Assembly (NCBI GenBank): GCA_032622095.1
Contig: CP136061.1
Coordinates: forward strand, 23,500,991 to 23,564,990
Direction of reading: 5' to 3'
DNA: 64,000 bases
Source of the DNA: Siphonodentalium dalli
Lineage: Eukaryota > Mollusca > Scaphopoda > Gadilida > Siphonodentaliidae
Shown here: piece after piece, positions 1 through 64,000 of the stretch
Numbering within the stretch: position 1 is the stretch's first letter
Layout: every line of letters starts with the position of its first letter
Program-made: the position numbers and the translations under genes
The notes under the pieces: generated by a model
Databases searched by the model: none
What the model saw: the letters and a program-made list of their open reading frames with translations, nothing else
What the model was told of the DNA's origin: nothing

Positions 1-865
1 GTTCTAACCCAGAGATTCATGAATAGAACTCAGGGATTTATGACTTTTTCGAAGGATTTATGGTTCTAACCCAGAGATTCATGAATAGAACTCAGGGATT
101 TATGACTTTTTCGAAGGATTTATGGCTTTAACCCCGAGATTCATGACTACAACTCAGGGATTTATGACTTTTTCGAAGGATTTATGGTTCTAACCCAGAG
201 ATTCATGAATACAACTCAGGGATTTATGACTTTTTCGAAGGATTTATGGCTCTAACCCAGAGATTCATGATTACAACTCAGGGATTTATGACTTTTTCGA
301 AGGATTTGTGGCTCTAACCCAGAGATTCATGAATACAACGCAAGGATTTATGACCTTTTCGAAGGATTTATGGCTCTAACCCCAAGATTCATGACTACAA
401 CTCAGGGATTTATGACTTTTTCGAAGGATTTATGGTTCTAACCCAGAGATTCACGAATAGAACTCAGGGATTTATGACTTTTTCGAAGGATTTATGGTTC
501 TAACCCAGAGATTCATGAATAGAACTTAGGGATTTATGACTTTTTCGAAGGATTTATGGTTCTAACCCAGAGATTCATGAATAGAACTCAGGGATTTATG
601 ACTTTTTCGAAGGATTTATGGCTTTAACCGCGAGATTCATGACTACAACTCAGGGATTTATGACTTTTTCGAAGGATTTATGGTTCTAACCCAGAGATTC
701 ATGAATACAACTCAGGGATTTATGACTTTTTCGAAGGATTTATGGTTCTAACCCAGAGATTCATGAATACAACTCAGGGATTTATGACTTTTTCGAAGGA
801 TTTATGGTTCTAACCCAGAGATTCATGATTACAACTCAGGGATTTATGACTTTTTCGAAGGATTT
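1..865 (+). repeat. Partial HOR, last 14 monomers
   Basis: Subtype order is 1-1-2-3-4-6-7-1c-1-1-2-3-3-4, which matches positions 16-29 of the 29-monomer consensus HOR. The unit therefore began before the window. Private markers gaacttaggg (~526), accgcgag (~627) and ccccaagat (~381) recur in the next two HORs, linking this stretch to them. It contains no gene. Confidence 0.9.
11..72 (+). repeat. Exemplar 62-bp monomer built of three ~21-bp sub-repeats
   Basis: Read from agagattc, the monomer splits into 11-31 (21 bp), 32-52 (21 bp) and 53-72 (20 bp). The three parts begin agagattcatga, agggatttatga and aggatttatgg. All share a purine-rich start, then gatt, t or c, atg, then a purine. Their tails differ (aatagaactc, ctttttcga, ttctaaccc). 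I infer that the 62-bp unit arose by triplication of a ~21-bp ancestor followed by divergence, before the present amplification. The same three-part alignment holds for every monomer subtype in the window. Confidence 0.85.
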
Positions 866-3158
866 GTGGCTCTAACCCAGAGATTCATGAATACAACTCA
901 GGGATTTATGACTTTTCGAAGGATTTATGGCTCAAACCCCGAGATTCATGACTACAACTCAGGGATTTATGACTTTTTCGAAGGATTTATGGTTCTAACC
1001 CAGAGATTCACGAATAGAACTCAGGGATTTATGACTTTTTCGAAGGATTTATGGTTCTAACCCAGAGATTCATGAATAGAACTCAGGGATTTATGACTTT
1101 TTCGAAGGATTTATGGTTCTAACCCAGAGATTCATGAATAGAACTCAGGGATTTATGACTTTTTCGAAGGATTTATGGCTTTAACCCCGAGATTCATGAC
1201 TACAACTCAGGGATTTATGACTTTTTCGAAGGATTTATGGTTCTAACCCAGAGATTCATGAATACAACTCAGGGATTTATGACTTTTTCGAAGGATTTGT
1301 GGCTCTAACCCAGAGATTCATTATTACAACTCAGGGATTTATGACTTTTTCGAAGGATTTGTGGCTCTAACCCAGAGATTCATGAATACAACGCAGGGAT
1401 TTATGACTTTTGCGAAGGATTTGTGGCTCTAACCCAGTGATTCGTGAGTACAACGCAAGGATTTATGACCTTTTCGAAGGATTTATGGCTCTAACCCCGA
1501 GATTCATGACTACAACTCAGGGATTTATGACTTTTTTGAAGGATTTGTGGCTCTAACCCAGAGATTCATGAATACAACGCAGGGATTTATGACTTTTTCG
1601 AAGGATTTATGGCTCTAACCCAGAGATTCATGAATACAACGCAAGGATTTATGACTTTTTCGAAGGATTTATGGCTCAAACCCCGAGATTCATGACTACA
1701 ACGCAGGGATTTATGACTTTTTTGAAGGATTTATGGTTCTAACCCAGAGATTCACGAATAGAACTCAGGGATTTATGACTTTTTCGAAGGATTTATGGTT
1801 CTAACCCAGAGATTCATGAATAGAACTCAGGGATTTATGACTTTTTCGAAGGATTTATGGTTCTAACCCAGAGATTCATGAATAGAACTCAGGGATTTAT
1901 GACTTTATCGAAGGATTTATGGCTTTAACCCCGAGATTCATGACTACAACTCAGGGATTTATGACTTTTTCGAAGGATTTATGGTTCTAACCCAGAGATT
2001 CATGAATACAACTCAGGGATTTATGACTTTTTCGAAGGATTTATGGCTCTAACCCAGAGATTCATGAATACAACGCAGGGATTTATGACTTTTTCGAAGG
2101 ATTTGTGGCTCTAACCCAGAGCTTCATGAATACAACGCAAGGATTTATGACTTTTTCGAAGGATTTATGGCTCAAACCCCGAGATTCATGACTACAACTC
2201 AGGGATTTATGACTTTTTCGAAGGATTTATGGTTCTAACCCAGAGATTCACGAATAGAACTCAGGGATTTATGACTTTTTCGAAGGATTTATGGTTCTAA
2301 CCCAGAGATTCATGAATAGAACTCAGGGATTTATGACTTTTTCGAAGGATTTATGGTTCTAACCCAGAGATTCATGAATAGAACTCAGGGATTTATGACT
2401 TTTTCGAAGGATTTATGGCTTTAACCCCGAGATTCATGACTACAACTCAGGGATTTATGACTTTTTCGAAGGATTTATGGTTCTAACCCAGAGATTCATG
2501 AATACAACTCAGGGATTTATGACTTTTTCGAAGGATTTATGGCTCTAACCCAGAGATTCATGATTACAACTCAGGGATTTATGACTTTTTCGAAGGATTT
2601 GTGGCTCTAACCCAGAGATTCATGAATACAACGCAAGGATTTATGACCTTTTCGAAGGATTTATGGCTCTAACCCCAAGATTCATGACTACAACTCAGGG
2701 ATTTATGACTTTTTCGAAGGATTTATGGTTCTAACCCAGAGATTCACGAATAGAACTCAGGGATTTATGACTTTTTCGAAGGATTTATGGTTCTAACCCA
2801 GAGATTCATGAATAGAACTTAGGGATTTATGACTTTTTCGAAGGATTTATGGTTCTAACCCAGAGATTCATGAATACAACTCAGGGATTTATGACTTTTT
2901 CGAAGGATTTATGGCTTTAACCGCGAGATTCATGACTACAACTCAGGGATTTATGACTTTTTCGAAGGATTTATGGTTCTAACCCAGAGATTCATGAATA
3001 CAACTCAGGGATTTATGACTTTTTCGAAGAATTTATGGTTCTAACCCAGAGATTCATGAATACAACTCAGGGATTTATGACTTTTTCGAAGGATTTATGG
3101 TTCTAACCCAGAGATTCATGATTACAACTCAGGGATTTATGACTTTTTCGAAGGATTT
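866..3158 (+). repeat. 37-monomer HOR (29 + 8)
   Basis: This is the consensus 29-monomer order with eight extra monomers (5-6-8-1c-1-1-2-3, ~2,041-2,540) placed after the second 2-3 pair. The insertion repeats the phrase just before it, as expected for a one-phrase unequal exchange. Markers include ttttgcgaagg (~1,410), gattcgtgagtac (~1,440) and a tttatcgaagg monomer (~1,915). The length of 2,293 bp is 37 x 62 minus 1. Confidence 0.9.
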
Positions 3159-5327
3159 GTGGCTCTAACCCAGAGATTCATGAATACAACTCAGGGATTT
3201 ATGACTTTTCGAAGGATTTATGGCTCAAACCCCGAGATTCATGACTACAACTCAGGGATTTATGACTTTTTCGAAGGATTTATGGTTCTAACCCAGAGAT
3301 TCACGAATAGAACTCAGGGATTTATGACTTTTTCGAAGGATTTATGGTTCTAACCCAGAGATTCATGAATAGAACTCAGGGATTTATGACTTTTTCGAAG
3401 GATTTATGGTTCTAACCCAGAGATTCATGAATAGAACTCAGGGATTTATGACTTTTTCGAAGGATTTATGGCTTTAACCCCGAGATTCATGACTACAACT
3501 CAGGGATTTATGACTTTTTCGAAGGATTTATGGTTCTAACCCAGAGATTCATGAATACAACTCAGGGATTTATGACTTTTTCGAAGGATTTGTGGCTCTA
3601 ACCCAGAGATTCATTATTACAACTCAGGGATTTATGACTTTTTCGAAGGATTTGTGGCTCTAACCCAGAGATTCATGAATACAACGCAGGGATTTATGAC
3701 TTTTGCGAAGGATTTGTGGCTCTAACCCAGTGATTCGTGAGTACAACGCAAGGATTTATGACCTTTTCGAAGGATTTATGGCTCTAACCCCGAGATTCAT
3801 GACTACAACTCAGGGATTTATGACTTTTTTGAAGGATTTGTGGCTCTAACCCAGAGATTCATGAATACAACGCAGGGATTTATGACTTTTTCGAAGGATT
3901 TGTGGCTCTAACCCAGAGATTCATGAATACAACGCAAGGATTTATGACTTTTTCGAAGGATTTATGGCTCAAACCCCGAGATTCATGACTACAACTCAGG
4001 GATTTATGACTTTTTTGAAGGATTTATGGTTCTAACCCAGAGATTCACGAATAGAACTCAGGGATTTATGACTTTTTCGAAGGATTTATGGCTTTAACCC
4101 CGAGATTCATGACTACAACTCAGGGATTTATGACTTTTTCGAAGGATTTATGGTTCTAACCCAGAGATTCATGAATACAACTCAGGGATTTATGACTTTT
4201 TCGAAGGATTTGTGGCTCTAACCCAGAGATTCATGATTACAACGCAGGGATTTATGACTTTTTCGAAGGATTTATGGCTCTAACCCAGAGATTCATGAAT
4301 ACAACGCAAGGATTTATGACTTTTTCGAAGGATTTATGGCTCAAACCCCGAGATTCATGACTACAACTCAGGGATTTATGACTTTTTTGAAGGATTTATG
4401 GTTCTAACCCAGAGATTCACGAATAGAACTCAGGGATTTATGACTTTTTCGAAGGATTTATGGTTCTAACCCAGAGATTCATGAATAGAACTCAGGGATT
4501 TATGACTTTTTCGAAGGATTTATGGTTCTAACCCAGAGATTCATGAATAGAACTCAGGGATTTATGACTTTTTCGAAGGATTTATGGCTTTAACCCCGAG
4601 ATTCATGACTACAACTCAGGGATTTATGACTTTTTCGAAGGATTTATGGTTCTAACCCAGAGATTCATGAATACAACTCAGGGATTTATGACTTTTTCGA
4701 AGGATTTATGGCTCTAACCCAGAGATTCATGATTACAACTCAGGGATTTATGACTTTTTCGAAGGATTTGTGGCTCTAACCCAGAGATTCATGAATACAA
4801 CGCAAGGATTTATGACCTTTTCGAAGGATTTATGGCTCTAACCCCAAGATTCATGACTACAACTCAGGGATTTATGACTTTTTCGAAGGATTTATGGTTC
4901 TAACCCAGAGATTCACGAATAGAACTCAGGGATTTATGACTTTTTCGAAGGATTTATGGTTCTAACCCAGAGATTCATGAATAGAACTTAGGGATTTATG
5001 ACTTTTTCGAAGGATTTATGGTTCTAACCCAGAGATTCATGAATAGAACTCAGGGATTTATGACTTTTTCGAAGGATTTATGGCTTTAACCGCGAGATTC
5101 ATGACTACAACTCAGGGATTTATGACTTTTTCGAAGGATTTATGGTTCTAACCCAGAGATTCATGAATACAACTCAGGGATTTATGACTTTTTCGAAGGA
5201 TTTATGGTTCTAACCCAGAGATTCATGAATACAACTCAGGGATTTATGACTTTTTCGAAGGATTTATGGTTCTAACCCAGAGATTCATGATTACAACTCA
5301 GGGATTTATGACTTTTTCGAAGGATTT
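3159..5327 (+). repeat. 35-monomer HOR, near-copy of the preceding one
   Basis: The subtype order equals the 37-monomer HOR at 866-3,158 with two consecutive type-1 monomers missing, so 1c at ~4,033 is followed directly by type 2 at ~4,093. It shares ttttgcgaagg, gattcgtgagtac, gaacttaggg and accgcgag with its neighbour. This is a tandem duplicate that later lost two monomers, or the neighbour gained them. Confidence 0.9.
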
Positions 5328-7806
5328 GTGGCTCTAACCCAGAGATTCATGAATACAACTCAGGGATTTATGACTTTTCGAAGGATTTATGGCTCAAACC
5401 CCGAGATTCATGACTACAACTCAGGGATTTATGACTTTTTCGAAGGATTTATGGTTCTAACCCAGAGATTCACGAATAGAACTCAGGGATTTATGACTTT
5501 TTCGAAGGATTTATGGTTCTAACCCAGAGATTCATGAATAGAACTCAGGGATTTATGACTTTTTCGAAGGATTTATGGTTCTAACCCAGAGATTCATGAA
5601 TAGAACTCAGGGATTTATGACTTTTTCGAAGGATTTATGGCTTTAACCCCGAGATTCATGACTACAACTCAGGGATTTATGACTTTTTCGAAGGATTTAT
5701 GGTTCTAACCCAGAGATTCATGAATACAACTCAGGGATTTATGACTTTTTCGAAGGATTTGTGGCTCTAACCCAGAGATTCATTATTACAACTCAGGGAT
5801 TTATGACTTTTTCGAAGGATTTGTGGCTCTAACCCAGAGATTCATGAATACAACGCAGGGATTTATGACTTTTGCGAAGGATTTGTGGCTCTAACCCAGT
5901 GATTCGTGAGTACAACGCAAGGATTTATGACCTTTTCGAAGGATTTATGGCTCTAACCCCGAGATTCATGACTACAACTCAGGGATTTATTACTTTTTTG
6001 AAGGATTTGTGGCTCTAACCCAGAGATTCATGAATACAACGCAGGGATTTATGACTTTTTCGAAGGATTTGTGACTCTAACCCAGAGATTCATGAATACA
6101 ACGCAAGGATTTATGACTTTTTCGAAGGATTTATGGCTCAAACCTCGAGATTCATGACTACAACGCAGGGATTTATGACTTTTTTGAAGGATTTATGGTT
6201 CTAACCCAGAGATTCACGAATAGAACTCAGGGATTTATGACTTTTTCGAAGGATTTATGGTTCTAACCCAGAGATTCATGAATAGAACTCAGGGATTTAT
6301 GACTTTTTCGAAGGATTTATGGTTCTAACCCAGAGATTCATGAATAGAACTCAGGGATTTATGACTTTATCGAAGGATTTATGGCTTTAACCCCGAGATT
6401 CATGACTACAACTCAGGGATTTATGACTTTTTCGAAGGATTTATGGTTCTAACCCAGAGATTCATGAATACAACTCAGGGATTTATGACTTTTTCGAAGG
6501 ATTTATGGCTCTAACCCAGAGATTCATGATTACAACTCAGGGATTTATGACTTTTTCGAAGGATTTGTGGCTCTAACCCAGAGCTTCATGAATACAACGC
6601 AAGGATTTATGACCTTTTCGAAGGATTTATGGCTCTAACCCCAAGATTCATGACTACAACTCAGGGATTTATGACTTTTTCGAAGGATTTATGGTTCTAA
6701 CCCAGAGATTCATGAATAGAACTCAGGGATTTATGACTTTTTCGAAGGATTTATGGTTCTAACCCAGAGATTCATGAATAGAACTCAGGGATTTATGACT
6801 TTTTCGAAGGATTTATGGTTCTAACCCAGAGATTCATGAATAGAACTCTGGGATTTATGACTTTTTCGAAGGATTTATGGCTTTAACCCCGAGATTCATG
6901 ACTACAACTCAGGGATTTATGACTTTTTCGAAGGATTTATGGTTCTAACCCAGAGATTCATGAATACAACTCAGGGATTTATGACTTTTTCGAAGGATTT
7001 ATGGTTCTAAACCAGAGATTCATGAATACAACTCAGGGATTTATGACTTTTTCGAAGGATTTGTGGCTCTAACCCAGAGATTCATGATTACAACTCAGGG
7101 ATTTATGACTTTTTCGAAGGATTTGTGGCTCTAACCCAGAGATTCATGAATAGAACTCAGGGATTTATGACTTTTTCGAAGGATTTATGGTTCTAACCCA
7201 GAGATTCATGAATAGAACTCAGGGATTTATGACTTTTTCGAAGGATTTATGGCTTTAACCCCGAGATTCATGACTACAACTCAGGGATTTATGACTTTTT
7301 CGAAGGATTTATGGTTCTAACCCAGAGATTCATGAATACAACTCAGGGATTTATGACTTTTTCGAAGGATTTGTGGCTCTAACCCAGAGATTCATTATTA
7401 CAACTCAGGGATTTATGACTTTTTCGAAGGATTTGTGGCTCTAACCCAGAGATTCATGAATACAACGCAGGGATTTATGACTTTTTCGAAGGATTTGTGG
7501 CTCTAACCCAGAGATTCATGAATACAACGCAAGGATTTATGACATTTTCGAAGGATTTATGGCTCTAACCCCGAGATTCATGACTACAACTCAGGGATTT
7601 ATGACTTTTTCGAAGGATTTATGGTTCTAACCCAGAGATTCATGAATAGAACTCAGGGATTTATGACTTTTTCGAAGGATTTATGGTTCTAACCCAGAGA
7701 TTAATGAATAGAACTCAGGGATTTGTGACTTTTTCGAAGGATTTATGAATCTAACCCAGAGATTCATGAATAGAACTCAGGGATTTATGACTTTTTCGAA
7801 GGATTT
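5328..7806 (+). repeat. 40-monomer HOR: complete 29-mer plus 11-monomer tail
   Basis: The first 29 monomers follow the consensus order exactly, with shared markers gattcgtgagtac and tttatcgaagg. At ~7,125 the expected X is replaced by a chimera: a ctctaaccc head with a gaatagaactc body. After it comes 1-2-3-4t-5-6-7-1-1-1, leading to an X reached from type 1 (atggctc) rather than type 4 (gtggctc). The tail carries gacattttcg (~7,531) and gattaatgaatag (~7,701), which reappear at 36.4-36.7 and 42.5-42.8 kb. Confidence 0.88.
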
Positions 7807-9603
7807 ATGGCTCTAACCCAGAGATTCATGAATACAACTCAGGGATTTATGACTTTTCGAAGGATTTATGGCTCAAACCCCGAGATTCATGACTACAACT
7901 CAGGGATTTATGACTTTTTCAAAGGATTTATGGTTCTAACCCAGAGATTCACGAATAGAACTCAGGGATTTATGACTTTTTCGAAGGATTTATGGTTCTA
8001 ACCCAGAGATTCATGAATAGAACTCAGGGATTTATGACTTTTTCGAAGGATTTATGGTTCTAACCCAGAGATTCATGAATAGAACTCAGGGATTTATGAC
8101 CTTTTCGAAGGATTTATGGCTTTAATCCCGAGATTCATGACTACAACTCAGGGATTTATGACTTTTTCGAAGGATTTATGGTTCTAACCCAGAGATTCAT
8201 GAATACAACTAAGGGATTTATGACTTTTTCGAAGGATTTATGGTTCTAACCCAGAGATTCATGAATAGAACTCAGGGATTTATGACTTTTTCGAAGGATT
8301 TATGGTTCTATCCCAGAGATTCATGAATAGAACTCAGGGATTTATGACTTTTTCGAAGGATTTATGGCTTTAACCCCGAGATTCATGACTACAACTCAGG
8401 GATTTATGACTTTTTCGAAGGATTTATGGCTTTAAATCCGAGATTCATGACTACAACTCAGGGATTTATGACTTTTTCGAAGGATTTATGGTTCTAACCC
8501 AGAGATTCATGAATACAACTCAGGGATTTATGACTTTTTCGAAGGATTTGTGGCTCAAACCCCGAGATTCATGAATACAACGCAGGGATTTATGACTTTT
8601 TCGAAGGATTTATGGTTCTATCCCAGAGATTCTCGAATAGAACTCAGGGATTTATGACTTTTTCGAAGGATTTATGGTTCTAACCCAGAGATTCATGAAT
8701 AGAACTCAGGGATTTATGACTTTTTCGAAGGATTTATGGTTCTAACCCAGAGATTCATGAATAGAACTCAGGGATTTATGACTTTTTCGAAGGATTTATG
8801 GCTTTAACCACGAGATTCATGACTACAACTCAGGGATTTATGACTTCTTCGAAGGATTTATGGTTCTAACCCCGAGATTCATGAATACAACTCAGGGATT
8901 TATGACTTTTTCGAAGGATTTGTGGCTCTAACCCAGAGATTCATTATTACAACTCAGGGATTTATGACTTTTTCGAAGGATTTGTGGCTCTAACCCAGAG
9001 ATTCATGATTACAACGCAGGGATTTATGACTTTTTCGAAGGATTTGTGGCTCTAACCCAGAGATTCATGAATACAACGCAAGGATTTATGACATTTTCGA
9101 AGGATTTATGGCTCTAACCCCAAGATTCATGACTACAACTCAGGGATTTATGACTTTTTCGAAGGATTTATGGTTCTAACCCAGAGATTCATGAATAGAA
9201 CTCAGGGATTTATGACTTTTTCGAAGGATTTATGGTTCTAACCCAGAGATTCATGAATAGAACTCAGGGATTTATGACTTTTTCGAAGGATTTATGGTTC
9301 TAACCCAGAGATTCATGAATAGAACTCAGGGATTTATCACTTTTTCGAAGGATTTATGGCTTTAACCCCGAGATTCATGACTACAACTCAGGGATTTATG
9401 ACTTTTTCGAAGGATTTATGGTTCTAACCCACAGATTCATGAATACAACTCAGGGATTTATGACTTTTTCGAAGGATTTATGGTTCTAACCCAGAGATTC
9501 ATGAATACAACTCAGGGATTTATGACTTTTTCGAAGGATTTGTGGCTCTAACCCAGAGATTCATGATTACAACTCAGGGATTTATGACTTTTTCGAAGGA
9601 TTT
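7807..9603 (+). repeat. 29-monomer HOR of rearranged internal order
   Basis: The length equals the consensus HOR (1,797 bp) but the order differs: X-8-1c-1-1-2-3-1-1-2-2-3, a hybrid 8/5 monomer (ctcaaacccc with gaatacaacgcaggg, ~8,552), a ctatccc type-1 monomer, 1-1-2-3-4t-5-6-7-1-1-1-2-3-3-4. Markers are aactaaggg (~8,208), ctatccc (~8,310 and ~8,619), ctttaaatcc (~8,431), gacttcttcg (~8,843) and ttctaaccccgag (~8,863). Close relatives lie about 28.9 and 35.0 kb downstream. Confidence 0.88.
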
Positions 9604-41826: not shown

Positions 41827-41950
41827 ATGGCTTTAACCCCGAGATTCATGACTACAACTCAGGGATTTATGACTTTTTCGAAGGATTTATGGTTCTAACC
41901 CAGAGATTCATGATTACAACTCAGGGATTTATGACTTTTTCGAAGGATTT
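40030..41950 (+). repeat. 31-monomer HOR, copy 2 of the third arrangement plus 2
   Basis: The first 29 monomers repeat 38,233-40,029 at an offset of 1,797 bp (ctcactgatttattac at 40,618). It then has a type 2 and a ttctaaccc type 4 before a GTG-class X. Own changes are gatattcatgac (~41,097), ctcagagattt (~41,736) and ctcatggattt (~41,798). The last two are inherited by the copies at 46.0 and 50.0 kb. Confidence 0.9.
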
Positions 41951-48271: not shown

Positions 48272-50999
48272 ATGGCTCTAACCCAGAGATTCATGAATAC
48301 AACTCAGGGATTTATGACTTTTCGAAGGATTTATGGCTCAAACCCCGAGATTCATGACTACAACTCAGGGATTTATGACTTTTTCGAAGGATTTATGGTT
48401 CTAACCCAGAGATTCACGAATAGAACTCAGGGATTTATGACTTTTTCGAAGGATTTATGGTTCTAACCCAGAGATTCATGAATAGAACTCAGGGATTTAT
48501 GACTTTTTCGAAGGATTTATGGTTCTAACCCAGAGATTCATGAATAGAACTCAGGGATTTATGACTTTTTCGAAGGATTTATGGCTTTAATCCCGAGATT
48601 CATGACTACAACTCAGGGATTTATGACTTTTTCGAAGGATTTATGGTTCTAACCCAGAGATTCATGAATACAACTTAGGGATTTATGACTTTTTCGAAGG
48701 ATTTGTGGCTCTAACCCAGAGATTCATGAATACAACGCAGGGATTTATGACTTTTTCGAAGGATTTGTGGCTCTAACCCAGAGATTCGTGAATACAACGC
48801 AAGGATTTATGACCTTTTCGAAGGATTTATGGCTCTAACCCCGAGATTCATGACTACAACTCACTGATTTATTACTTTTTCGAAGGATTTATGGTTCTAA
48901 CCCAGAGATTCATGAATAGAACTCAGGGATTTATGACTTTTTCGAAGGATTTATGGTTCTAACCCAGAGATTCATGAATAGAACTCAGGGATTTATGACT
49001 TTTTCGAAGGATTTATGGTTCTAACCCAGAGATTCATGAATAGAACTCAGGGATTTATGACTTTTTCGAAGGATTTATGGCTTTAACCCCGAGATTCATG
49101 ACTACAACTCAGGAATTTATGACTTTTTCGAAGGATTTATGGTTCTAACCCAGAGATTCATGAATACAACTCAGGGATTTATGACTTTTTCGAAGGATTT
49201 GTGGCTCTAACCCAGAGATTCATGAATACAACGCAGGGATTTATGACTTTTTCGAAGGATTTATGGCTCTAACCCAGAGATTCATGAATACAACGCAAGG
49301 ATTTATAACTTTTTCGAAGGATTTATGGCTCAAACCCCGAGATTCATGACTACAACTCAGGGATTTATGACTTTTTTGAAGGATTTATGGTTCTAACCCA
49401 GAGATTCACGAATAGAACTCAGGGATTTATGACTTCTTCGAAGGATTTATGGTTCTAACCCAGAGATTCATGAATAGAACTCAGGGATTTATGACTTTTT
49501 CGAAGGATTTATGGTTCTAACCCAGAGATTCATGAATAGAACTCAGGGATTTATGACTTTTTCGAAGTATTTATGACTTTAACCCCGAGATTCATGACTA
49601 CAACTCAGGGATTTATGACTTTTTCGAAGGATTTATGGTTCTAACCCAGAGATTCATGAATACAACTCAGGGATTTATGACTTTTTCGAAGGATTTGTGG
49701 CTCTTACCCAGAGATTCATGATTACAACTCAGGGATTTATGACTTTTTTGAAGGATTTGTGGCTCTAACCCTGAGATTCATGAATACAACGCAAGGATTT
49801 ATGACCTTTTCGAAGGATTTATGGTTCTAACCCCGAGATTCATGACTACAACTCAGGGATTTATGACTTTTTCGAAGGATTTATGGTTCTAACCCAGAGA
49901 TTCATGAATAGAACTCAGGGATTTATGACTTTTTCGAAGAATTTATGGTTCTAACCCAGAGATTCATGAATAGAACTCAGAGATTTATGACTTTTTCGAA
50001 GGATTTATGGTTCTAACCCAGAGATTCATGAATAGAACTCATGGATTTATGACTTTTTCGAAGGATTTATGGCTTTAACCCCGAGATTCATGACTACAAC
50101 TCAGGGATTTATGACTTTTTCGAAGGATTTATGGTTCTAACCCAGAGATTCATGAATACAACTCAGGGATTTATGACTTTTTCGAAGGATTTATGGTTCT
50201 AACCCAGAGATTCATGAATAGAACTCAGGGATTTATGACTTTTTCGAAGGATTTATGGTTCTAACCCAGAGATTCATGAATAGAACTCAGGGATTTATGA
50301 CTTTTTCGAAGGATTTATGGCTTTAACCCCGAGATTCATGACTACAACTCAGGGATTTATGACTTTTTCGAAGGATTTATGGTTCTAACCCAGAGATTCA
50401 TGAATACAACTCAGGGATTTATGACTTTTTCGAAGGATTTATGGCTTTAACCACGAGATTCATGACTACAACTCAGGGATTTATGACTTCTTCGAAGGAT
50501 TTATGGTTCTAACCCCGAGATTCATGAATACAACTCAGGGATTTATGACTTTTTCGAAGGATTTGTGGCTCTAACCCAGAGATTCATTATTACAACTCAG
50601 GGATTTATGACTTTTTCGAAGGATTTGTGGCTCTAACCCAGAGATTCATGATTACAACGCAGGGATTTATGACTTTTTCGAAGGATTTGTGGCTCTAACC
50701 CAGAGATTCATGAATACAACGCAAGGATTTATGACATTTTCGAAGGATTTATGGCTCTAACCCCGAGATTCATGACTACAACTCAGGGATTTATGACTTT
50801 TTCGAAGGATTTATGGTTCTAACCCAGAGATTCATGAATAGAACTCAGGGATTTATGACTTTTTCGAAGGATTTATGGTTCTAACCCAGAGATTCATGAA
50901 TAGAACTCAGGGATTTATGACTTTTTTCGAAGGATTTATGGTTCTAACCCAGAGATTCATGAATAGAACTCAGGGATTTATGACTTTTTCGAAGGATTT
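48272..50999 (+). repeat. 44-monomer compound HOR, copy 2
   Basis: Copy of 44,305-47,032 at an offset of 3,967 bp, including the 63-bp six-T monomer (~50,923) and ctcactgatttattac (48,860). A private change is gaagaatttatgg (~49,936). It has caactcaggg (~50,159) where copy 1 has caacttaggg. Confidence 0.92.
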
Positions 51000-51300
51000 A
51001 TGGCTCTAACCCAGAGATTCATAAATACAACTCAGGGATTTATGACTTTTCGAAGGATTTATGGCTCAAACCCCGGGATTCATGACTACAACTCAGGGAT
51101 TTATGACTTTTTCGAAGGATTTATGGTTCTAACCCAGAGATTCACGAATAGAACTCAGGGATTTATAACTTTTTCGACGGATTTATGGTTCTAACCCAGA
51201 GATTCATGAATAGAACTCAGGGATTTATGACTTTTTCGAAGGATTTATGGTTCTAACCCAGAGATTCATGAATAGACACTCAGGGATTTATGACTTTTTC

Positions 51301-51800
51301 GAAGGATTTATGGCTTTAACCCCGAGATTCATGACTACAACTCAGGGATTTATGACTTTTTCGAAGGATTTATGGTTCTAACCCAGAGATTCATGAATAC
51401 AACTCAGGGATTTATGACTTTTTCGAAGGATTTGTGGCTCTAACCCAGAGATTCATGATTACAACTCAGGGATTTATGACTTTTTCGAAGGATTTGTGGC
51501 TCTAACCCAGAGATTCATGAATACAACGCAGGGATTTATGACTTTTTCGAAGGATTTGTGGCTTTAACCCCGAGATTCATGACTACAACTCAGGGATTTA
51601 TGACTTTTTCGAAGGATTTATGGTTCTAACCCAGAGATTCATGAATACAACTCAGGGATTTATGACTTTTTCGAAGGATTTGTGGCTCTAACCCAGAGAT
51701 TCATGATTACAACTCAGGGATTTATGACTTTTTCGAAGGATTTGTGGCTCTAACCCAGAGATTCATGAATACAACGCAGGGATTTATGACTTTTTCGAAG
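51301..51800 (+). repeat. Local four-monomer (248-bp) duplication
   Basis: The series 2-3-4-5 occurs twice in succession. The second type 2 is reached through gtggctttaac (~51,559), a combination of a type-5 exit and a type-2 entry not usual in the array. This is the smallest clear whole-monomer duplication I saw. Confidence 0.8.
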
Positions 51801-52049
51801 GATTTGTGGCTCTAACCCAGAGATTCGTGAATACAACGCAAGGATTTATGACCTTTTCGAAGGATTTATGGCTCTAACCCCGAGATTCATGACTACAACT
51901 CACTGATTTATTACTTTTTCGAAGGATTTATGGTTCTAACCCAGAGATTCATGAATAGAACTCAGGGATTTATGACTTTTTCGAAGGATTTATGGTTCTA
52001 GCCCAGAGATTCATGTATAGAACTCAGGAATTTATGACTTTTTCGAAAG

Positions 52050-54030
52050 ATTTATGGCTTTAAACCCGAGATTCATGACTACAACTCAGGGATTTATGAC
52101 TTTTTCGAAGGATTTATGGTTCTAACCCAGAGATTCATGAATACAACTCAGGGATTTATGACTTTTTCGAAGGATTTGTGGCTCTAACCCAGAGATTCAT
52201 GAATACAACGCTGGGATTTATGACTTTTTCGAAGGATTTATGGCTCTAACCCAGAGATTCATGAATACAACGCAAGGATTTATGACTTTTTCGAAGGATT
52301 TATGGCTCAAACCCCGAGATTCATGACTACAACTCAGGGATTTATGACTTTTTTGAAGGATTTATGGTTCTAACCCAGAGATTCACGAATAGAACTCAGG
52401 GATTTATGACTTCTTCGAAGGATTTATGGTTCTAACCCAGAGATTCATGAATAGAACTCAGGGATTTATGACTTTTTCGAAGGATTTATGGTTCTAACCC
52501 AGAGATTCATGAATAGAACTCAGGGATTTATGACTTTTTCGAAGTATTTATGGCTTTAACCCCGAGATTCATGACTACAACTCAGGGATTTATGACTTTT
52601 TCGAAGGATTTATGGTTCTAACCCAGAGATTCATGAATACAACTCAGGGATTTATGACTTTTTCGAAGGATTTGTGGCTCTAACCCAGAGATTCATGATT
52701 ACAACTCAGGGATTTATGACTTTTTTGAAGGATTTGTGGCTCTAACCCAGAGATTCATGAATACAACGCAAGGATTTATGACCTTTTCGAAGGATTTATG
52801 GTTCTAACCCCGAGATTCATGACTACAACTCAGGGATTTATGACTTTTTCGAAGGATTTATGGTTCTAACCCAGAGATTCATGAATAGAACTCAGGGATT
52901 TATGACTTTTTCGAAGGATTTATGGTTCTAACCCAGAGATTCATGAATAGAACTCAGGGATTTATGACTTTTTCGAAGGATTTATGGCTTTAACCCCGAG
53001 ATTCATGAATACAACTCAGGGATTTATGACTTTTTTGAAGGATTTATGGCTTTAACCCCGAGATTCATGACTACAACTCAGGGATTTATGACTTTTTCGA
53101 AGGATTTATGGTTCTAACCCAGAGATTCATGAATACAACTCAGGGATTTATGACTTTTTCGAAGGATTTGTGGCTCTAACCCAGAGATTCATGAATACAA
53201 CGCTGGGATTTATGACTTTTTCGAAGGATTTATGGCTTTAACCCAGAGATTCATGAATACAACGCAAGGATTTATGACTTTTTCGAAGGATTTATGGCTC
53301 AAACCCCGAGATTCATGACTACAACTCAGGGATTTATGACTTTTTTGAAGGATTTATGGTTCTAACCCAGAGATTCACGAATAGAACTCAGGGATTTATG
53401 ACTTCTTCGAAGGATTTATGGTTCTAACCCAGAGATTCATGAATAGAACTCAGGGATTTATGACTTTTTCGAAGGATTTATGGTTCTAACCCAGAGATTC
53501 ATGAATAGAACTCAGGGATTTATGACTTTTTCGAAGTATTTATGGCTTTAACCCCGAGATTCATGACTACAACTCAGGGATTTATGACTTTTTCGAAGGA
53601 TTTATGGTTCTAACCCAGAGATTCATGAATACAACTCAGGGATTTATGACTTTTTCGAAGGATTTGTGGCTCTAACCCAGAGATTCATGATTACAACTCA
53701 GGGATTTATGACTTTTTTGAAGGATTTGTGGCTCTAACCCAGAGATTCATGAATACAACGCAAGGATTTATGACCTTTTCGAAGGATTTATGGTTCTAAC
53801 CCCGAGATTCATGACTACAACTCAGGGATTTATGACTTTTTCGAAGGATTTATGTTTCTAACCCAGAGATTCATGAATAGAACTCAGGGATTTATGACTT
53901 TTTCGAAGGATTTATGGTTCTAACCCAGAGATTCATGAATAGAACTCAGGGATTTATGACTTTTTCGAAGGATTTATGGTTCTAACCCAGAGATTCATGA
54001 GTAGAACTCAGGGATTTATGACTTTTTCGA
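52050..54030 (+). repeat. 16-monomer (992-bp) tandem duplication
   Basis: The rare gaatacaacgctggg monomer occurs at 52,201 and 53,193, exactly 992 bp apart (16 x 62). Around both lie 2-3-5-6-8-1c-1-1-2-3-4-6-7-1-1 with shared gacttcttcg and gaagtatttatgg variants. The size is two of the ~8-monomer phrases. Confidence 0.88.
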
Positions 54031-56083
54031 AGGATTTATGGCTTTAACCCCGAGATTCATGACTACAACTCAGGGATTTATGACTTTTTCGAAGGATTTA
54101 TGGTTCTAACCCAGAGATTCATGAATACAACTCAGGGATTTATGACTTTTTCGAAGGATTTATGGTTCTAACCCAGAGATTCATGAATAGAACTCAGGGA
54201 TTTATGACTTTTTCGAAGGATTTATGGTTCTAACCCAGAGATTCATGAATAGAACTCAGTGATTTATTACTTTTTCGAAGGATTTATGGCTTTAACCCCG
54301 AGATTCATGACTACAACTCAGGGATTTATGACTTTTTCGAAGGATTTATGGTTCTAACCCAGAGATTCATGAATACAACTCAGGGATTTATGACTTTTTC
54401 GAAGGATTTGTGGCTCTAACCCAGAGATTCATGATTACAACTCAGGGATTTATGACTTTTTCGAAGGATTTGTGGCTCTAACCCAGAGATTCATGAATAC
54501 AACGCAGGGATTTATGACTTTTTCGAAGGATTTGTGGCTCTAACCCAGAGATTCGTGAATACAACGCAAGGATTTATGACCTTTTCGAAGGATTTATGGC
54601 TCTAACCCCGAGATTCATGACTACAACTCAGGGATTTATGACTTTTTCGAAGGATTTATGGTTCCAACCCAGAGATTCATGAATAGAACTCAGGGATTTA
54701 TGACTTTTTCGAAGGATTTATGGTTCTAACCCAGAGATTCATGAATAGAACTCAGGGATTTATAACTTTTTCGAAGGATTTATGGTTCTAACCCAGAGAT
54801 TCATGAATAGAACTCAGGGATTTATGACTTTTTCGAAGGATTTATGGCTTTAACCCCGAGATTCATGACTACAACTCAGGGATTTATGACTTTTTCGATG
54901 GATTTATGGTTCTAACCCAGAGATTCATGAATACAACTCAGGGATTTATGACTTTTTCGAAGGATTTGTGGCTCTAACCCAGAGATTCATGAATACAACG
55001 CAGGGATTTATGACTTTTTCGAAGGATTTATGGCTCTAACCCAGAGATTCATGAATACAACGCAAGGATTTATGACTTTTTCGAAGGATTTATGGCTCAA
55101 ACCCCGAGATTCATGACTACAACTCAGGGATTTATGACTTTTTTGAAGGATTTATGGTTCTAACCCAGAGATTCACGAATAGAACTCAGGGATTTATGAC
55201 TTCTTCGAAGGATTTATGGTTCTAACCCAGAGATTCATGAATAGAACTCAGGGATTTATGACTTTTTCGAAGGATTTATGGTTCTAACCCAGAGATTCAT
55301 GAATAGAACTCAGGGATTTATGACTTTTTCGAAGGATTTATGGCTTTAACCCCGAGATTCATGACTACAACTCAGGGATTTATGACTTTTTCGAAGGATT
55401 TATGGTTCTAACCCAGAGATTCATGAATACAACTCAGGGATTTATGACTTTTTCGAAGGATTTGTGGCTCTAACCCAGAGATTCATGATTACAACTCAGG
55501 GATTTATGACTTTTTTGAAGGATTTGTGGCTCTAACCCAGAGATTCATGAATACAACGCAAGGATTTATGACCTTTTCGAAGGATTTATGGCTCTAACCC
55601 CGAGATTCATGACTACAACACAGGGATTTATGACTTTTTCGAAGGATTTATGGTTCTAACCCAGAGATTCATGAATAGAACTCAGGGATTTATGACTTTT
55701 TCGAAGGATTTATGGTTCTAACCCAGAGATTCATGAATAGAACTCAGGGATTTATGACTTTTTCGAAGGATTTATGGTTCTAACCCAGAGATTCATGAAT
55801 AGAACTCAGGGATTTATGACTTTTTCGAAGGATTTATGGCATTAACCCCGAGATTCATGACTACAACTCAGGGATTTATGACTTTTTCGAAGGATTTATG
55901 GTTCTAACCCAGAGATTCATGAATACAACTCAGGGATTTATGACTTTTTCGAAGGATTTATGGTTCTAACCCAGAGATTCATGAATACAACTCAGGGATT
56001 TATGACTTTTTCGAAGGATTTGTGGCTCTAACCCAGAGATTCATGATTACAACTCAGGGATTTATGACTTTTTCGAAGGATTT

Positions 56084-59000
56084 GTGGCTCTAACCCAGAG
56101 ATTCATGAATACATCTCAGGGATTTATGACTTTTCGAAAGATTTATGGCTCAAACCCCGAGATTCATGACTACAACTCAGGGATTTATGACTTTTTCGAA
56201 AGATTTATGGTTCTAACCCAGAGATTCACGAATATAACTCAGGGATTTATGACTTTTTCGAAGGATTTATAGTTCTAACCCAGAGATTCATGAATAGAAC
56301 TCAGGGTTTTATGACTTTTTCGAAGGATTTATGGTTCTAACCCAGAGATTCATGAATAGAACTAAGGGATTTATGACTTTTTCGAAGGATTTATGGCTTT
56401 AACCCCGAGATTCATGACTACAACTCAGGGATTTATGACTTTTTCGAAGGATTTATGGTTCTAACCCAGAGATTCATGAATACAACTCAGGGATTTATGA
56501 CTTTTTCGAAGGATTTGTGGCTCTAACCCAGAGATTCATGATTACAACTCAGGGATTTATGACTTTTTCGAAGGATTTGTGGCTCTAACCCAGAGATTCA
56601 TGAATACAACGCAGGGATTTATGACTTTTTCGAAGGATTTGTGGCTCTAACCCAGAGATTCGTGAATACAACGCAAGGATTTATGACCTTTTCGAAGGAT
56701 TTATGGCTCTAACCCCGAGATTCATGACTACAACTCAGGGATTTATAACTTTTTCGAAGGATTTATGGTTCTAACCCAGAGATTCATGAATAGAACTCAG
56801 GGATTTATGACTTTTTCGAAGGATTTATGGCTTTAACCCCGAGATTCATGACTACAACTCAGGGATTTATGACTTTTTCGAAGGATTTATGGTTCTAACC
56901 CAGAGATTCATGAATACAACTCAGGGATTTATGACTTTTTCGAAGGATTTGTGGCTCTAACCCAGAGATTCGTGATTACAACTCAGGGATTTATGACTTT
57001 TTCGAAGGATTTGTGGCTCTAACCCAGAGATTCATGAATACAACGCAGGGATTTATGACTTTTTCGAAGGATTTGTGGCTCTAACCCAGAGATTCGTGAA
57101 TACAACGCAAGGATTTATGACCTTTTCGAAGGATTTATGGCTCTAACCCCGAGATTCATGACTACAACTCAGGGATTTATGACTTTTTCGAAGGATTTAT
57201 GGTTCTAACCCAGAGATTCATGAATAGAACTCAGGGATTTATGACTTTTTCGAAGGATTTATGGTTCTAACCCAGAGATTCATGAATAGAACTCAGGGAT
57301 TTATGACTTTTGCGAAGGATTTATGGTTCTAACCCAGAGATTCATGAATAGAACTCAGGGATTTATGACTTTTTCGAAGGATTTATGGCTTTAACCCCGA
57401 GATTCATGACTACAACTCAGGGATTTATGACTTTTTCGAAGGATTTATGGTTCTAACCCAGAGATTCATGAATACAACGCAAGGATTTATGACCTTTTCG
57501 AAGGATTTATGGCTCTAACCCCGAGATTCATGACTACAACTCAGGGATTTATGACTTTTTCGAAGGATTTGTGGTTCTAACCCAGAGATTCATGAATAGA
57601 ACTAAGGGATTTATGACTTTTTCGAAGGATTTATGGTTCTAACCCAGAGATTCATGAATAGAACTCAGGGATTTATGACTTTTTCGAAGGATTTATGGTT
57701 CTAACCCAGAGATTCATGAATAGAACTCAGGGATTTATGACTTTTTCGAAGGATTTATGGCTTTAACCCCGAGATTCATGACTACAACTCAGGGATTTAT
57801 GACTTTTTCGAAGGATTTATGGTTCTAACCCAGAGATTCATGAATACAACTCAGGGATTTATGACTTTTTCGAAGGATTTGTGGCTCAAACCCAGAGATT
57901 CATGAATACAACGCAGGGATTTATGACTTTTTCGAAGGATTTGTGGCTCTAACCCAGAGATTCATGAATACAACGCAAGGATTTATGACTTTTTCGAAGG
58001 ATTTATGGCTCAAACCCCGAGATTCATGACTACAACTCAGGGATTTATGACTTTTTCGAAGGATTTATGGTTCTATCCCAGAGATTCATGAATAGAACTC
58101 AGGGATTTATGACTTTTTCGAAGGATTTATGGCTCTAACCCAGAGATTCATGAATACAACGCAGGGATTTATGACTTTTTCGAAGGATTTATGGCTCAAA
58201 CCCAGAGATTCATGAATACAACGCAAGGATTTATGACTTTTTCGAAGGATTTATGGCTCAAACCCCGAGATTCATGACTACAACTCGGGGATTTATGACT
58301 TTTTTGAAGGATTTATGGTTCTAACCCAGAGATTCACGAATAGAACTCAGGGATTTATGACTTCTTCGAAGGATTTATGGTTCTAACCCAGAGATTCATG
58401 AATAGAACTCAGGGATTTATGACTTTTTCGAAGGATTTATGGTTCTAACCCAGAGATTCATGAATAGAACTCAGGGATTTATGACTTTTTCGAAGGATTT
58501 ATGGCTTTAACCCCGAGATTAATGACTACAACTCAGGGATTTATGACTTTTTCGAAGGATTTATGGTTCTAACCCAGAGATTCATGAATACAACTCAGGG
58601 ATTTATGACTTTTTCGAAGGATTTGTGGCTCTAACACAGAGATTCATGATTACAACTCAGGGATTTATGACTTTTTTGAAGGATTTGTGGCTCTAACCCA
58701 GAGATTCATGAATACAACGCAAGGATTTATGACCTTTTCGAAGGATTTATGGCTCTAACCCCGAGATTCATGACTACAACTCAGGGATTTATGACTTTTT
58801 CGAAGGATTTATGGCTCTAACCCCGAGATTCATGAATAGAACTCATGGATTTATGACTTTTTAGAAGGATTTATGGTTCTAACCCAGAGATTCATGAATA
58901 GATCTCAGGGATTTATGACTTTTTCGAAGGATTTATGGTTCTAACCCAGAGATTCATGAATAGAACTCAGGGATTTATGACTTTTTCGAAGGATTTATGG

Positions 59001-59802
59001 CTTTAACCCCGAGATTCATGACTACAACTCAGGGATTTATGACTTTTTCGAAGGACTTATGGTTCTAACCCAGAGATTCACGAATAGAACTCAGGGATTT
59101 ATGACTTTTTCGAAGGATTTATGGTTCTAACCCAGAGATTCATGAATAGAACTCAGGGATTTATGACTTTTTCGAAGGATTTATGGTTCTAACCCAGAAA
59201 TTCATGAATACAACGCAGGGATTTATGACTTTTTCGAAGGATTTATGGCTCTAACCCCGAGATTCATGACTACAACTCAGGGATTTATGACTTTTTTGAA
59301 GGATTTATGGTTCTAACCCAGAGATTCACGAATAGAACTTAGGGATTTATGACTTCTTCGAAGGATTTATGGTTCTAACCCAGAGATTCATGAATTGAAC
59401 TCAGGGATTTATGACTTTTTCGAAGGATTTATGGTTCTAACCCAGAGATTCATGAATAGAACTCAGGGATTTATGACTTTTTCGAAGGATTTATGGTTCT
59501 AACCCAGAGATTCATGAATAGAACTCAGGGATTTATGACTTTTTCGAAGGATTTATGGCTTTAACCCCGAGATTCATGACTACAACTCAGGGATTTATGA
59601 CTTTTTCGAAGGATTTATGGTTCTAACCCAGAGATTCATGAATACAACTCAGGGATTTATGACTTTTTCGAAGGATTTATGGTTCTAACCCAGAGATTCA
59701 TGAATACAACTCAGGGATTTATGACTTTTTCGAAGGATTTGTGGCTCTAACCCAGAGATTCATGATTACAACTCAGGGATTTATGACTTTTTCGAAGGAT
59801 TT
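56084..59802 (+). repeat. 60-monomer divergent stretch
   Basis: Its X carries acatctc and gaaagattt, and the 1c monomer has aatataactc. The order is irregular: X-8-1c-1-1-2-3-4-5-6-7-1-2-3-4-5-6-7-1-1-1-2-6-7-1-1-1-2-3-5-6-8-1-5-6-8-1c-1-1-2-3-4-6-7-7-1-1-2-1c-1, a ccagaaattc 3/5 hybrid, 7-1c-1-1-1-2-3-3-4. Several chimeric monomers occur, for example ctctaacccc with gaatag (~58,819) and ttctaaccc with gaatacaacgcaagg (~57,452). Single-base variants are denser here than in the left half. Confidence 0.82.
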
Positions 59803-62156
59803 GTGGCTCTAACCCAGAGATTCATGATTACATCTCAGGGATTTATGACTTTTCGAAGGATTTATGGCTCAAACCCCGAGATTCATGACTACAACTAAGG
59901 GATTTATTACTTTTTCGAAAGATTTATGGTTCTAACCCAGAGATTCACGAATATAACTCAGGGATTTATGACTTTTTCGAAGGATTTATGGTTCTAACCC
60001 AGAGATTCATGAATAGAACTCAGGGTTTTATGACTTTTCGAAGGATTTATGGTTCTAACCCAGAGATTCATGAATACAACTCAGGGATTTATGACTTTTT
60101 CGAAGGATTTGTGGCTCTAACCCAGAGATTCATGATTACTACTCAGGGATTTATGACTTTTTCGAAGGATTTGTGGCTCTAACACTGAGATTCATGAATA
60201 CAACGCAGGGATTTATGACTTTTTCGAAGGATTTGTGGCTCTAACCCAGAGATTCGTGAATACAACGCAAGGATTTATGACCTTTTCGAAGGATTTATGG
60301 CTCTAACCCCGAGATTCATGACTACAACTCAGGGATTTATAACTTTTTCGAAGGATTTATGGTTCTAACCCAGAGATTCATGAATAGAACTCAGGGATTT
60401 ATGACTTTTTCGAAGGATTTATGGCTTTAACCCCGAGATTCATGACTACAACTCAGGGATTTATGACTTTTTCGAAGGATTTATGGTTCTAACCCAGAGA
60501 TTCATGAATACAATTCAGGGATTTATGACTTTTTCGAAGGATTTGTGGCTCTAACCCAGAGATTCGTGATTACAACTCAGGGATTTATGACTTTTTCGAA
60601 GGATTTGTGGCTCTAACCCAGAGATTCATGAATACAACGCAGGGATTTATGACTTTTTCGAAGGATTTGTGGCTCTAACCCAGAGATTCGTGAATACAAC
60701 GCAAGGATTTATGACCTTTTCGAAGGATTTATGGCTCTAACCCCGAGATTCATGACTACAACTCAGGGATTTATGACTTTTTCGAAGGATTTATGGTTCT
60801 AACCCAGAGATTCATGAATAGAACTCAGGGATTTATGACTTTTTCGAAGGATTTATGGTTCTAACCCAGAGATTCATGAATAGAACTCAGGGATTTATGA
60901 CTTTTGCGAAGGATTTATGGTTCTAACCCAGAGATTCATGAATAGAACTCAGGGATTTACGACTTTTTCGAAGGATTTATGGCTTTAACCCCGAGATTCA
61001 TGACTACAACTCAGGGATTTATGACTTTTTCGAAGGATTTATGGTTCTAACCCAGAGATTCATGAATACAACGCAAGGATTTATGACATTTTCGAAGGAT
61101 TTATGGCTCTAACCCCGAGATTCATAACTACAACTCAGGGATTTATGACTTTTTCGAAGGATTTATGGTTCTAACCCAGAGATTCATGAATAGAACTAAG
61201 GGATTTATGACTTTTTCGAAGGATTTATGGTTCTAACCCAGAGATTCATGAATAGAACTCAGGGATTTATGACTTTTTCGAAGGATTTATGGTTCTAACC
61301 CAGAGATTCATGACTACAACTCAGGGATTTATGACTTTTTCGAAGGATTTATGGTTCTAACCCAGAGATTCATGAATAGAACTCAGGGATTTATGACTTT
61401 TTCGAAGGATTTATGGTTCTAACCCAGAGATTCATGAATAGAACTCAGGGATTTATGACTTTTGCGAAGGATTTATGGTTCTAACCCAGAGATTCATGAA
61501 TAGAACTCAGGGATTTATGACTTTTTCGAAGGATTTATGGCTTTAACCCCGAGATTCATGACTACAACTCAGGGATTTATGACTTTTTCGAAGGATTTAT
61601 GGTTCTAACCCAGAGATTCATGAATACAACGCAAGGATTTATGACCTTTTCGAAGGATTTATGGCTCTAACCCCGAGATTCATGACTACAACTCAGGGAT
61701 TTATGACTTTTTCGAAGGATTTATGGTTCTAACCCAGAGATTCATGAATAGAACTAAGGGATTTATGACTTTTTCGAAGGATTTATGGTTCTAACCCAGA
61801 GATTCATGAATAGAACTCAGGGATTTATGACTTTTTCGAAGGATTTATGGTTCTAACCCAGAGATTCATGAATAGAACTCAGGGATTTATGACTTTTTCG
61901 AAGGATTTATGGCTTTAACCCCGAGATTCATGACTACAACTCAGGGATTTATGACTTTTTCGAAGGATTTATGGTTCTAACCCAGAGATTCATGAATACA
62001 ACTCAGGGATTTATGACTTTTTCGAAGGATTTATGGTTCTAACCCAGAGATTCATGAATACAACTCAGGGATTTATGACTTTTTCGAAGGATTTGTGGCT
62101 CTAACCCAGAGATTCATGATTACAACTCAGGGATTTATGACTTTTTCGAAGGATTT
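59803..62156 (+). repeat. 38-monomer divergent HOR with a second 61-bp monomer
   Basis: X carries gattacatctc and is followed by 8-1c. The fourth monomer has both gggttttatg and the four-T run (~60,016-60,040), so this unit has two 61-bp monomers 185 bp apart and measures 38 x 62 minus 2. The corresponding monomer at 56,306 has gggttttatg but still five Ts, so the second deletion arose later in this lineage. Markers are gattactactc (~60,132), aacactgag (~60,181) and ttttgcgaagg (~60,902 and ~61,461). Confidence 0.88.
60016..60040 (+). repeat. Second, independent 61-bp monomer type
   Basis: This type-1 monomer has gggttttatg and the four-T run. It recurs near 62,370-62,394 and 63,794-63,818 and nowhere in the first 59 kb. 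Its four-T run equals that of the X monomer but sits on a different subtype, so it reflects either a second one-base loss in the T run or transfer of the short run from the adjacent X by exchange or gene conversion. Confidence 0.85.
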
Positions 62157-63580
62157 GTGGCTCTAACCCAGAGATTCATGATTACATCTCAGGGATTTAT
62201 GACTTTTCGAAGGATTTATGGCTCAAACCCCGAGATTCATGACTACAACTCAGGGATTTATTACTTTTTCGAAAGATTTATGGTTCTAACCCAGAGATTC
62301 ACGAATATAACTCAGGGATTTATGACTTTTTCGAAGGATTTATGGTTCTAACCCAGAGATTCATGAATAGAACTCAGGGTTTTATGACTTTTCGAAGGAT
62401 TTATGGTTCTAACCCAGAGATTCATGAATACAACTCAGGGATTTATGACTTTTTCGAAGGATTTGTGGTTCTAACCCAGAGATTCATGAATACAACGCAA
62501 GGATTTATGACATTTTCGAAGGATTTATGGCTCTAACCCCGAGATTCATAACTACAACTCAGGGATTTATGACTTTTTCGAAGGATTTATGGTTCTAACC
62601 CAGAGATTCATGAATAGAACTAAGGGATTTATGACTTTTTCGAAGGATTTATGGTTCTAACCCAGAGATTCATGAATAGAACTCAGGGATTTATGACTTT
62701 TTCGAAGGATTTATGGTTCTAACCCAGAGATTCATGACTACAACTCAGGGATTTATGACTTTTTCGAAGGATTTATGGTTCTAACCCAGAGATTCATGAA
62801 TAGAACTCAGGGATTTATGACTTTTTCGAAGGATTTATGGTTCTAACCCAGAGATTCATGAATAGAACTCAGGGATTTATGACTTTTGCGAAGGATTTAT
62901 GGTTCTAACCCAGAGATTCATGAATAGAACTCAGGGATTTATGACTTTTTCGAAGGATTTATGGCTTTAACCCCGAGATTCATGACTACAACTCAGGGAT
63001 TTATGACTTTTTCGAAGGATTTATGGTTCTAACCCAGAGATTCATGAATACAACGCAAGGATTTATGACCTTTTCGAAGGATTTATGGCTCTAACCCCGA
63101 GATTCATGACTACAACTCAGGGATTTATGACTTTTTCGAAGGATTTATGGTTCTAACCCAGAGATTCATGAATAGAACTAAGGGATTTATGACTTTTTCG
63201 AAGGATTTATGGTTCTAACCCAGAGATTCATGAATAGAACTCAGGGATTTATGACTTTTTCGAAGGATTTATGGTTCTAACCCAGAGATTCATGAATAGA
63301 ACTCAGGGATTTATGACTTTTTCGAAGGATTTATGGCTTTAACCCCGAGATTCATGACTACAACTCAGGGATTTATGACTTTTTCGAAGGATTTATGGTT
63401 CTAACCCAGAGATTCATGAATACAACTCAGGGATTTATGACTTTTTCGAAGGATTTATGGTTCTAACCCAGAGATTCATGAATACAACTCAGGGATTTAT
63501 GACTTTTTCGAAGGATTTGTGGCTCTAACCCAGAGATTCATGATTACAACTCAGGGATTTATGACTTTTTCGAAGGATTT
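62157..63580 (+). repeat. 23-monomer HOR, deletion derivative of the preceding unit
   Basis: Same two-deletion start as 59,803 (second 61-bp monomer ~62,370-62,394), then a direct jump from the type-3 monomer into the type-6 monomer with gacattttcg (~62,512). This corresponds to loss of fifteen monomers (38 - 15 = 23). The remainder matches ~61,070-62,156. Confidence 0.88.
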
Positions 63581-64000
63581 GTGGCTCTAACCCAGAGATT
63601 CATGATTACATCTCAGGGATTTATGACTTTTCGAAGGATTTATGGCTCAAACCCCGAGATTCATGACTACAACTCAGGGATTTATTACTTTTTCGAAAGA
63701 TTTATGGTTCTAACCCAGAGATTCACGAATATAACTCAGGGATTTATGACTTTTTCGAAGGATTTATGGTTCTAACCCAGAGATTCATGAATAGAACTCA
63801 GGGTTTTATGACTTTTCGAAGGATTTATGGTTCTAACCCAGAGATTCATGAATACAACTCAGGGATTTATGACTTTTTCGAAGGATTTGTGGCTCTAACC
63901 CAGAGATTCATGATTACTACTCAGGGATTTATGACTTTTTCGAAGGATTTGTGGCTCTAACACTGAGATTCATGAATACAACGCAGGGATTTATGACTTT
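63581..64000 (+). repeat. Partial HOR at the window end
   Basis: It repeats the start of the 59,803 unit: gattacatctc X, type 8 with gatttattac, aatataactc 1c, gggttttatg 61-bp monomer, type 3, gattactactc type 4 and aacactgag type 5. The array continues past the window. Confidence 0.9.

Follow-up and report, generated by a model that had tools for sequence, protein, structure and literature searches.

Nested periods in a 62-bp satellite array and the exchange events that may have produced them

The stretch of DNA analysed here (the window, 64,000 nucleotides, positions 1–64,000) is one head-to-tail satellite array that runs in a single direction without interruption, and its hierarchy of periods is genuine and can be read with uncommon ease. 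On balance we favour, with modest confidence, the view that it is a young eukaryotic satellite array to which copies of the array contributed again and again, through unequal exchange that kept the register or through break-induced copying, with a preference for well-matched partners. The levels themselves, the intact register and the presence of junctions better matched than those of random-exchange simulations are observed; we infer the recombination pathway, the order of the older steps and, from the type of sequence, a eukaryotic source.

Monomers and their 21-bp sub-repeats

Tandem Repeats Finder assigned a period of 62 to the whole window (1–64,000, + strand; 1,032.8 copies, 93% matches), and a wrap-around alignment into 1,033 segments agreed, yielding 1,032 complete monomers and one 47-bp partial at the right end. 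The 62-bp satellite proposed in an earlier, sequence-only reading of the window is thereby confirmed. Among the complete monomers, 995 are 62 bp long, 34 are 61 bp and three are 63 bp; as none of the 1,032 falls outside 61–63 bp, the register is intact, and the many changes in phrase length described below have left no junction outside it. All 34 of the 61-bp monomers lack a base within positions 44–45, in a T run. The G+C content is ~37–38% along the whole window, and monomers of the array diverge by ~6%. There are 164 distinct raw monomer sequences (the partial counted in) and 161 distinct types among the 1,032 aligned monomers, comprising 25 common and 136 rare types. With regard to coding potential, stop codons lie at most 98 codons apart in each of the six frames across the window.

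The monomer consists of sub-repeats of 21, 21 and 20 bp. Circular self-matching of the 62-bp consensus was maximal at a shift of 21 (33 of 62 positions, p = 0.0004, 5,000 shuffles), which bears out the 21-bp level of the earlier reading. Helical phasing was rejected as a separate feature, as a peak at 21 merely repeats the 21-bp sub-repeat.

Point mutation supplies most of the variety among monomers, as 113 of the 136 rare types carry a base absent from the common types. The other 23 contain no new base: 20 of them are interpretable as crossovers between a pair of common types, and three are other mosaics. The new changes (n = 135) include 51 transitions. We considered whether new bases were copied from a sister 21-bp sub-repeat, and found this unsupported: 64 of the 135 changes agreed with such copying, against 44.6 under a flat null and 54.3 under a spectrum-weighted null (p = 0.016), but shifted pairings averaged 75.8, and for distinct changes the count was 30 of 71 (p = 0.097, spectrum-weighted null). 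New changes were absent from 12 monomer columns, where chance would leave 6.8 such columns (p = 0.016), a weak signal of constraint.

The CpG within TTCGAA (monomer positions 50–51) is retained in 978 of the 1,032 monomers. At this near-constant CpG we counted two new changes against 4.4 expected, a count that excludes the 52 monomers in which position 50 is T; most of these are of common types, and they were not scored as new. The lack of a C-to-T excess is perhaps a sign of low CpG methylation, a hint that is only weak because those 52 monomers are uncounted.

Phrases, higher-order units and duplicated blocks

Autocorrelation of the bases gave 62 bp and its multiples, including 496 bp, and then 1,797 and 4,090 bp, so that peaks above 62 bp, which the sequence-only reading had predicted, are present at 496, 1,797 and 4,090 bp. 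Three further predicted peaks, at 3,967, 4,957 and 6,072 bp, hold as lags of 64, 80 and 98 monomers but not as clean raw base peaks: the raw values there are 0.45, 0.56 and 0.46 (median 0.25), because the 61-bp monomers smear the phase (0.62 at 3,966 bp). When whole monomers were compared, the fraction of identical monomers was 0.103–0.192 at lags of 8, 29, 37, 64, 66, 80 and 98 monomers, against a maximum of 0.094 in 200 shuffles, a maximum that several other monomer lags also surpassed. The nested hierarchy claimed earlier (21 bp, 62 bp, then 8, 29 and 64–98 monomers) thus exceeds shuffled controls at every level.

To read phrases, we wrote the 25 common types as letters and assigned each rare type to the nearest of them. 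In this reading a phrase opens with A-class monomers, usually continues with B, then C or D, and ends in a variable tail, and this grammar is present through the whole window. Of 129 phrases, 49 have eight monomers, 20 have nine, 15 have five, 11 have six and 10 have twelve. An extra level of ~4 monomers, absent from the sequence-only reading, lies below the phrase, each group ending in a monomer whose position 11 is C: spacings between such monomers (n = 258) were four in 149 cases and five in 54, and the corrected autocorrelation of position 11 at lag 4 was 0.45.

Using the same phrase reading, we drew domain limits by eye at 7.1, 9.2, 36.0 and 51.1 kb (all coordinates refer to the + strand). 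The domains differ in their lag spectra; with its 33 monomers, the island at 7.1–9.2 kb is too short for a spectrum of its own. Domain I comprises a left part (1–7,127; strongest lags 72, 37 and 35 monomers) and a main part (9,173–36,004; strongest lags 66, 29 and 37), separated by an island of domain II type (7,128–9,172). Domain II itself (36,005–51,125) has its strongest lags at 98, 64, 69 and 29 monomers, and domain III (51,126–64,000) has irregular phrases and weak lags (best 0.16). Within the island, 7,190–8,986 is 99.39% identical to 36,129–37,925 and to 42,201–43,997, which lie ~29 and 35 kb away, perhaps as a result of long-distance transfer within the array. The phrases of 51,126–64,000 range irregularly from 3 to 13 monomers, which might fit nearness to an edge of the array or an older part of it.

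The main 29-mer is made of phrases of 12, 8 and 9 monomers and measures 1,797 bp, one base below 29 × 62, because it includes the commonest 61-bp type (23 copies). Six phrase triples of the 12+8+9 type occur. Four are canonical 29-mers (22,620–24,416; 26,028–27,824; 30,118–31,914; 34,208–36,004), the last being identical to the third, and two are 37-mers (27,825–30,117 and 31,915–34,207), in which the 12-monomer phrase is longer by eight monomers. The four canonical copies are 99.56–100% alike (0–0.44% different) and the monomers inside them 93.7% alike; the blocks are thus far more alike than their monomers, as expected of an HOR. Each canonical copy uses 17 monomer types over its 29 positions (counted as the nearest of the 25 common types; under the published 5% cut-off still more types would be merged), so monomer types recur inside one unit as in a cascading HOR. 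A second 29-mer, of 5+8+8+8 composition, lies in tandem in domain II (38,050–41,705; 38,050–39,908 against 39,847–41,705, 99.95%). Since two 29-mers of different composition both measure 1,797 bp, the 1,797-bp peak pools two units. That both units (22,620–41,705) share exactly this length is probably chance. Near-identical blocks were also found at offsets of 27, 33, 35, 37 and 55 monomers, and nowhere in the 64 kb is a single canonical unit repeated regularly over a long distance; the window has the four 29-mers, the two 37-mers and other sizes between them. The 29-monomer HOR of the sequence-only reading therefore survives as a period, as one of several unit sizes and not as a single regularly repeated unit.

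Super-HOR duplications of 4–6 kb, also claimed from the letters, were recovered as blocks at lags of 64, 66, 80 and 98 monomers with 99.72–99.93% identity. The longest is a 66-monomer (4,090-bp) duplication within 24,789–36,376 (24,789–32,286 against 28,879–36,376, 21 differences, 99.72%); the others are an 80-monomer (4,957-bp) offset within 15,309–23,487 (15,309–18,530 against 20,266–23,487, 99.84%), a 98-monomer (6,072-bp) offset within 35,882–45,980 (35,882–39,908 against 41,954–45,980, 99.93%) and a 64-monomer (3,967-bp) duplication within 43,254–51,374 (43,254–47,406 against 47,221–51,374, 99.90%). These blocks extend over 121 monomers at lag 66, 67 at lag 64, 65 at lag 98 and 52 at lag 80, and the best diagonal score was 95.8, against 4–5 in five order-shuffled controls. 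Among 1,008 24-monomer blocks, 311 had a best partner at least 99.8% identical, and these partners lay a median of 66 monomers away; another 207 blocks had no partner as high as 98%, and there the best one lay a median of 168 monomers away.

Long satellites are hard to assemble, and canonical copies 3 and 4 are identical, as might be seen if some near-identical large blocks were collapsed or repeated assembly pieces. We regard such an artefact as very improbable: the five main near-identical pairs (offsets 66, 64, 98, 55 and 80 monomers, 99.72–99.93%) hold 3 to 21 private differences each, and several overlapping offsets coexist.

Relation to known satellites

The array is an HOR satellite of a type already described in primate centromeres, for which the nearest term is cascading HOR, in which the same monomer types recur within a unit (as defined in PMC11050224). 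Cascading HORs reported there and in PMC12428378 include the 15mer and 20mer of human chromosome 15 (PMC11050224) and the 58mer of the orangutan Y (PMC12428378). The sequence-only reading had considered HORs of 29 or of 64–98 monomers unusual, which does not hold, as 58-, 59-, 45-, 51-, 53-, 54- and 84-mers, some called preliminary, are published for orangutan alpha satellite (PMC12428378); in base pairs, the 1.8 kb of the 29-mer is modest. Primate cascading HORs share with the array reused monomer types, sub-fragments of fixed monomer number and variant copies distinguished by complete monomer rows. In contrast, their monomers are 171 bp long and 20–40% apart (PMC11050224), whereas ours are 62 bp, and so outside alpha satellite with its 171-bp monomer, and ~6% apart; and they have hundreds of canonical copies, against four in the window.

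A centromeric or pericentric location is plausible for the array, as a candidate only. The core pattern of the CENP-B box comprises nine bases. The consensus fits six of these, 937 of 2,000 shuffled consensuses did equally well, and 263 sites in the window reach seven of nine; the match of the array to the box is at chance level.

Human beta satellite forms HORs. Its monomer is similarly short (68 bp) but it is GC-rich (PMC8122249), whereas the array has ~37% G+C, a likeness drawn by description. Satellites of root-knot nematodes, a non-primate case, have monomers shuffled between simple and HOR arrangement, a comparison again by description; a CENP-B-like box is reported for them (PMC3694981), whereas our consensus is at chance level.

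Literature text searches returned no description of the array or its hierarchy among the matches listed, and the earlier statement that the family was not recognised stands in that sense, as not found there. A cattle ROR2 intron contains a 62-bp satellite unit (PMC13185825), set beside the array by description only; a 62-bp item from goat was rejected as a relative, being a gene deletion (PMC11579321). Two exact 22-base pieces of the array had no matches in viral contigs, one exact 22-base piece had none in prokaryote genomes, and a 1,797-base stretch had none in phages or plasmids. A 19-base piece had three single matches in prokaryote genomes, with ~2 expected; these were rejected as relatives, each locus having one motif copy and no array. 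Rfam, applied to 28,879–36,376, gave no match at E up to 0.1.

Proposed growth of the array by exchange

In Smith's model, as recounted in PMC8122249, unequal crossover on its own makes sequence periodic, without selection. We simulated arrays of ~2,000 monomers that mutated and whose blocks were duplicated or deleted, with 96 runs for exploration. Of 480 runs in which matching played no part, 93 were close to the window in monomer diversity. The number of periods equalled or exceeded that of the window in 67 of the 93, the strength of its main period was reached in seven and the length of its longest block in four. The model is crude, in that matched random runs rarely reach the last two. Many periods could thus come from mutation together with the duplication and deletion of blocks wholly at random, a Smith-type drift with no memory of phrases; an 8-monomer-scale signal, however, appeared in none of the 480 runs and so in none of the 93 matched for diversity, and we regard this account, which the junctions below also disfavour, as improbable. 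Register-free copying here failed to give the 8-monomer phrase, and simulations needed a preference for matching.

When exchange depended on matching, an 8-monomer-scale signal arose in 19 of 200 runs over ten settings (11 of 20 at the best, 6 of 20 at the second, 1 of 20 at each of two, and none of 20 at each of the other six); no diversity filter was applied here, and any short period of 4 to 12 monomers was scored. At the best setting the main period exceeded the observed one in 18 of 20 runs, and the short period was seldom eight.

An older, regular 8- (or 4-) monomer HOR array might instead have been blurred later by block copying at random places, making a preference for matched partners unneeded. 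In favour of this, the phrase grammar spans the whole window, and in 18 of 20 runs begun from a regular 8-monomer array the signal outlasted 300 random events. It was lost, however, by 1,000 and by 3,000 events (0 of 20 each), and at 300 events the runs held ~28–42 monomer types against 161 observed (regular-start simulations used one mutation rate). A 4-monomer start behaved alike (20 of 20 at 300 events, none at 1,000 or 3,000), and a 29-monomer start gave an 8-monomer-scale signal in none of 60 runs. As such a two-stage history also leaves the matched junctions unexplained, we consider it rather unlikely.

Evidence on matching at junctions came from 217 near-identical segments, which defined 45 junction instances in 30 distinct contexts. 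The identical stretch along which junction partners could slide had a median length of 113 bases, whereas at random places with equal block length it had one of 55 (p = 5e-6; junctions are not independent). Across the 30 contexts, mismatches per monomer were 1.43 at junctions and 2.73 at random places, a ratio of 0.525, or 0.573 against nearby places. The junction search itself favours matched junctions, and the same search was run on simulations as a control: none of 24 random-exchange runs had a ratio as low as 0.525 (median 0.77, lowest 0.53), but 3 of 24 did under weak matching and 15 and 13 of 24 at two stronger settings; at these two settings, 0.573 against nearby places was reached in 10 and 12 of 24. 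The window has 30 junctions, against simulation medians of 76–220. Window junctions are thus narrowly better matched than random exchange gives, and the phrase-signal simulations and the junction test agree, although the margin of the latter is small.

Under in-register exchange between well-matched partners, a 21-bp motif would have been tripled into the 62-bp monomer, monomer variants would have been grouped by ~4 and then into phrases of ~8 to 12, phrases would have been joined into units with some 27 to 37 monomers each, and the latest copying would be that of blocks 55 to 98 monomers long. The intact register and the 20 rare types interpretable as crossovers also speak for such exchange, although point mutation accounts for most of the variety. 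This age order is based on the ~6% between monomers, the 0–0.44% between canonical 29-mers and the 311 of 1,008 24-monomer blocks with partners at 99.8% or above. We further suggest, tentatively and as a possibility short of a favoured reading, that the phrase of 4 and 8 monomers acts as a register that sustains itself: exchange may sense matching over one to three monomers (~60–190 bp), phrases would re-form without selection, and one recombination rule, legible in a single array, could yield the whole hierarchy.

The origin of nested satellite repeats is an old question, studied mostly on strongly diverged alpha-satellite monomers. With monomers only ~6% apart and all levels readable in 64 kb, models of exchange become testable against counts. 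If the matching rule is true, HOR formation would need only homologous recombination.
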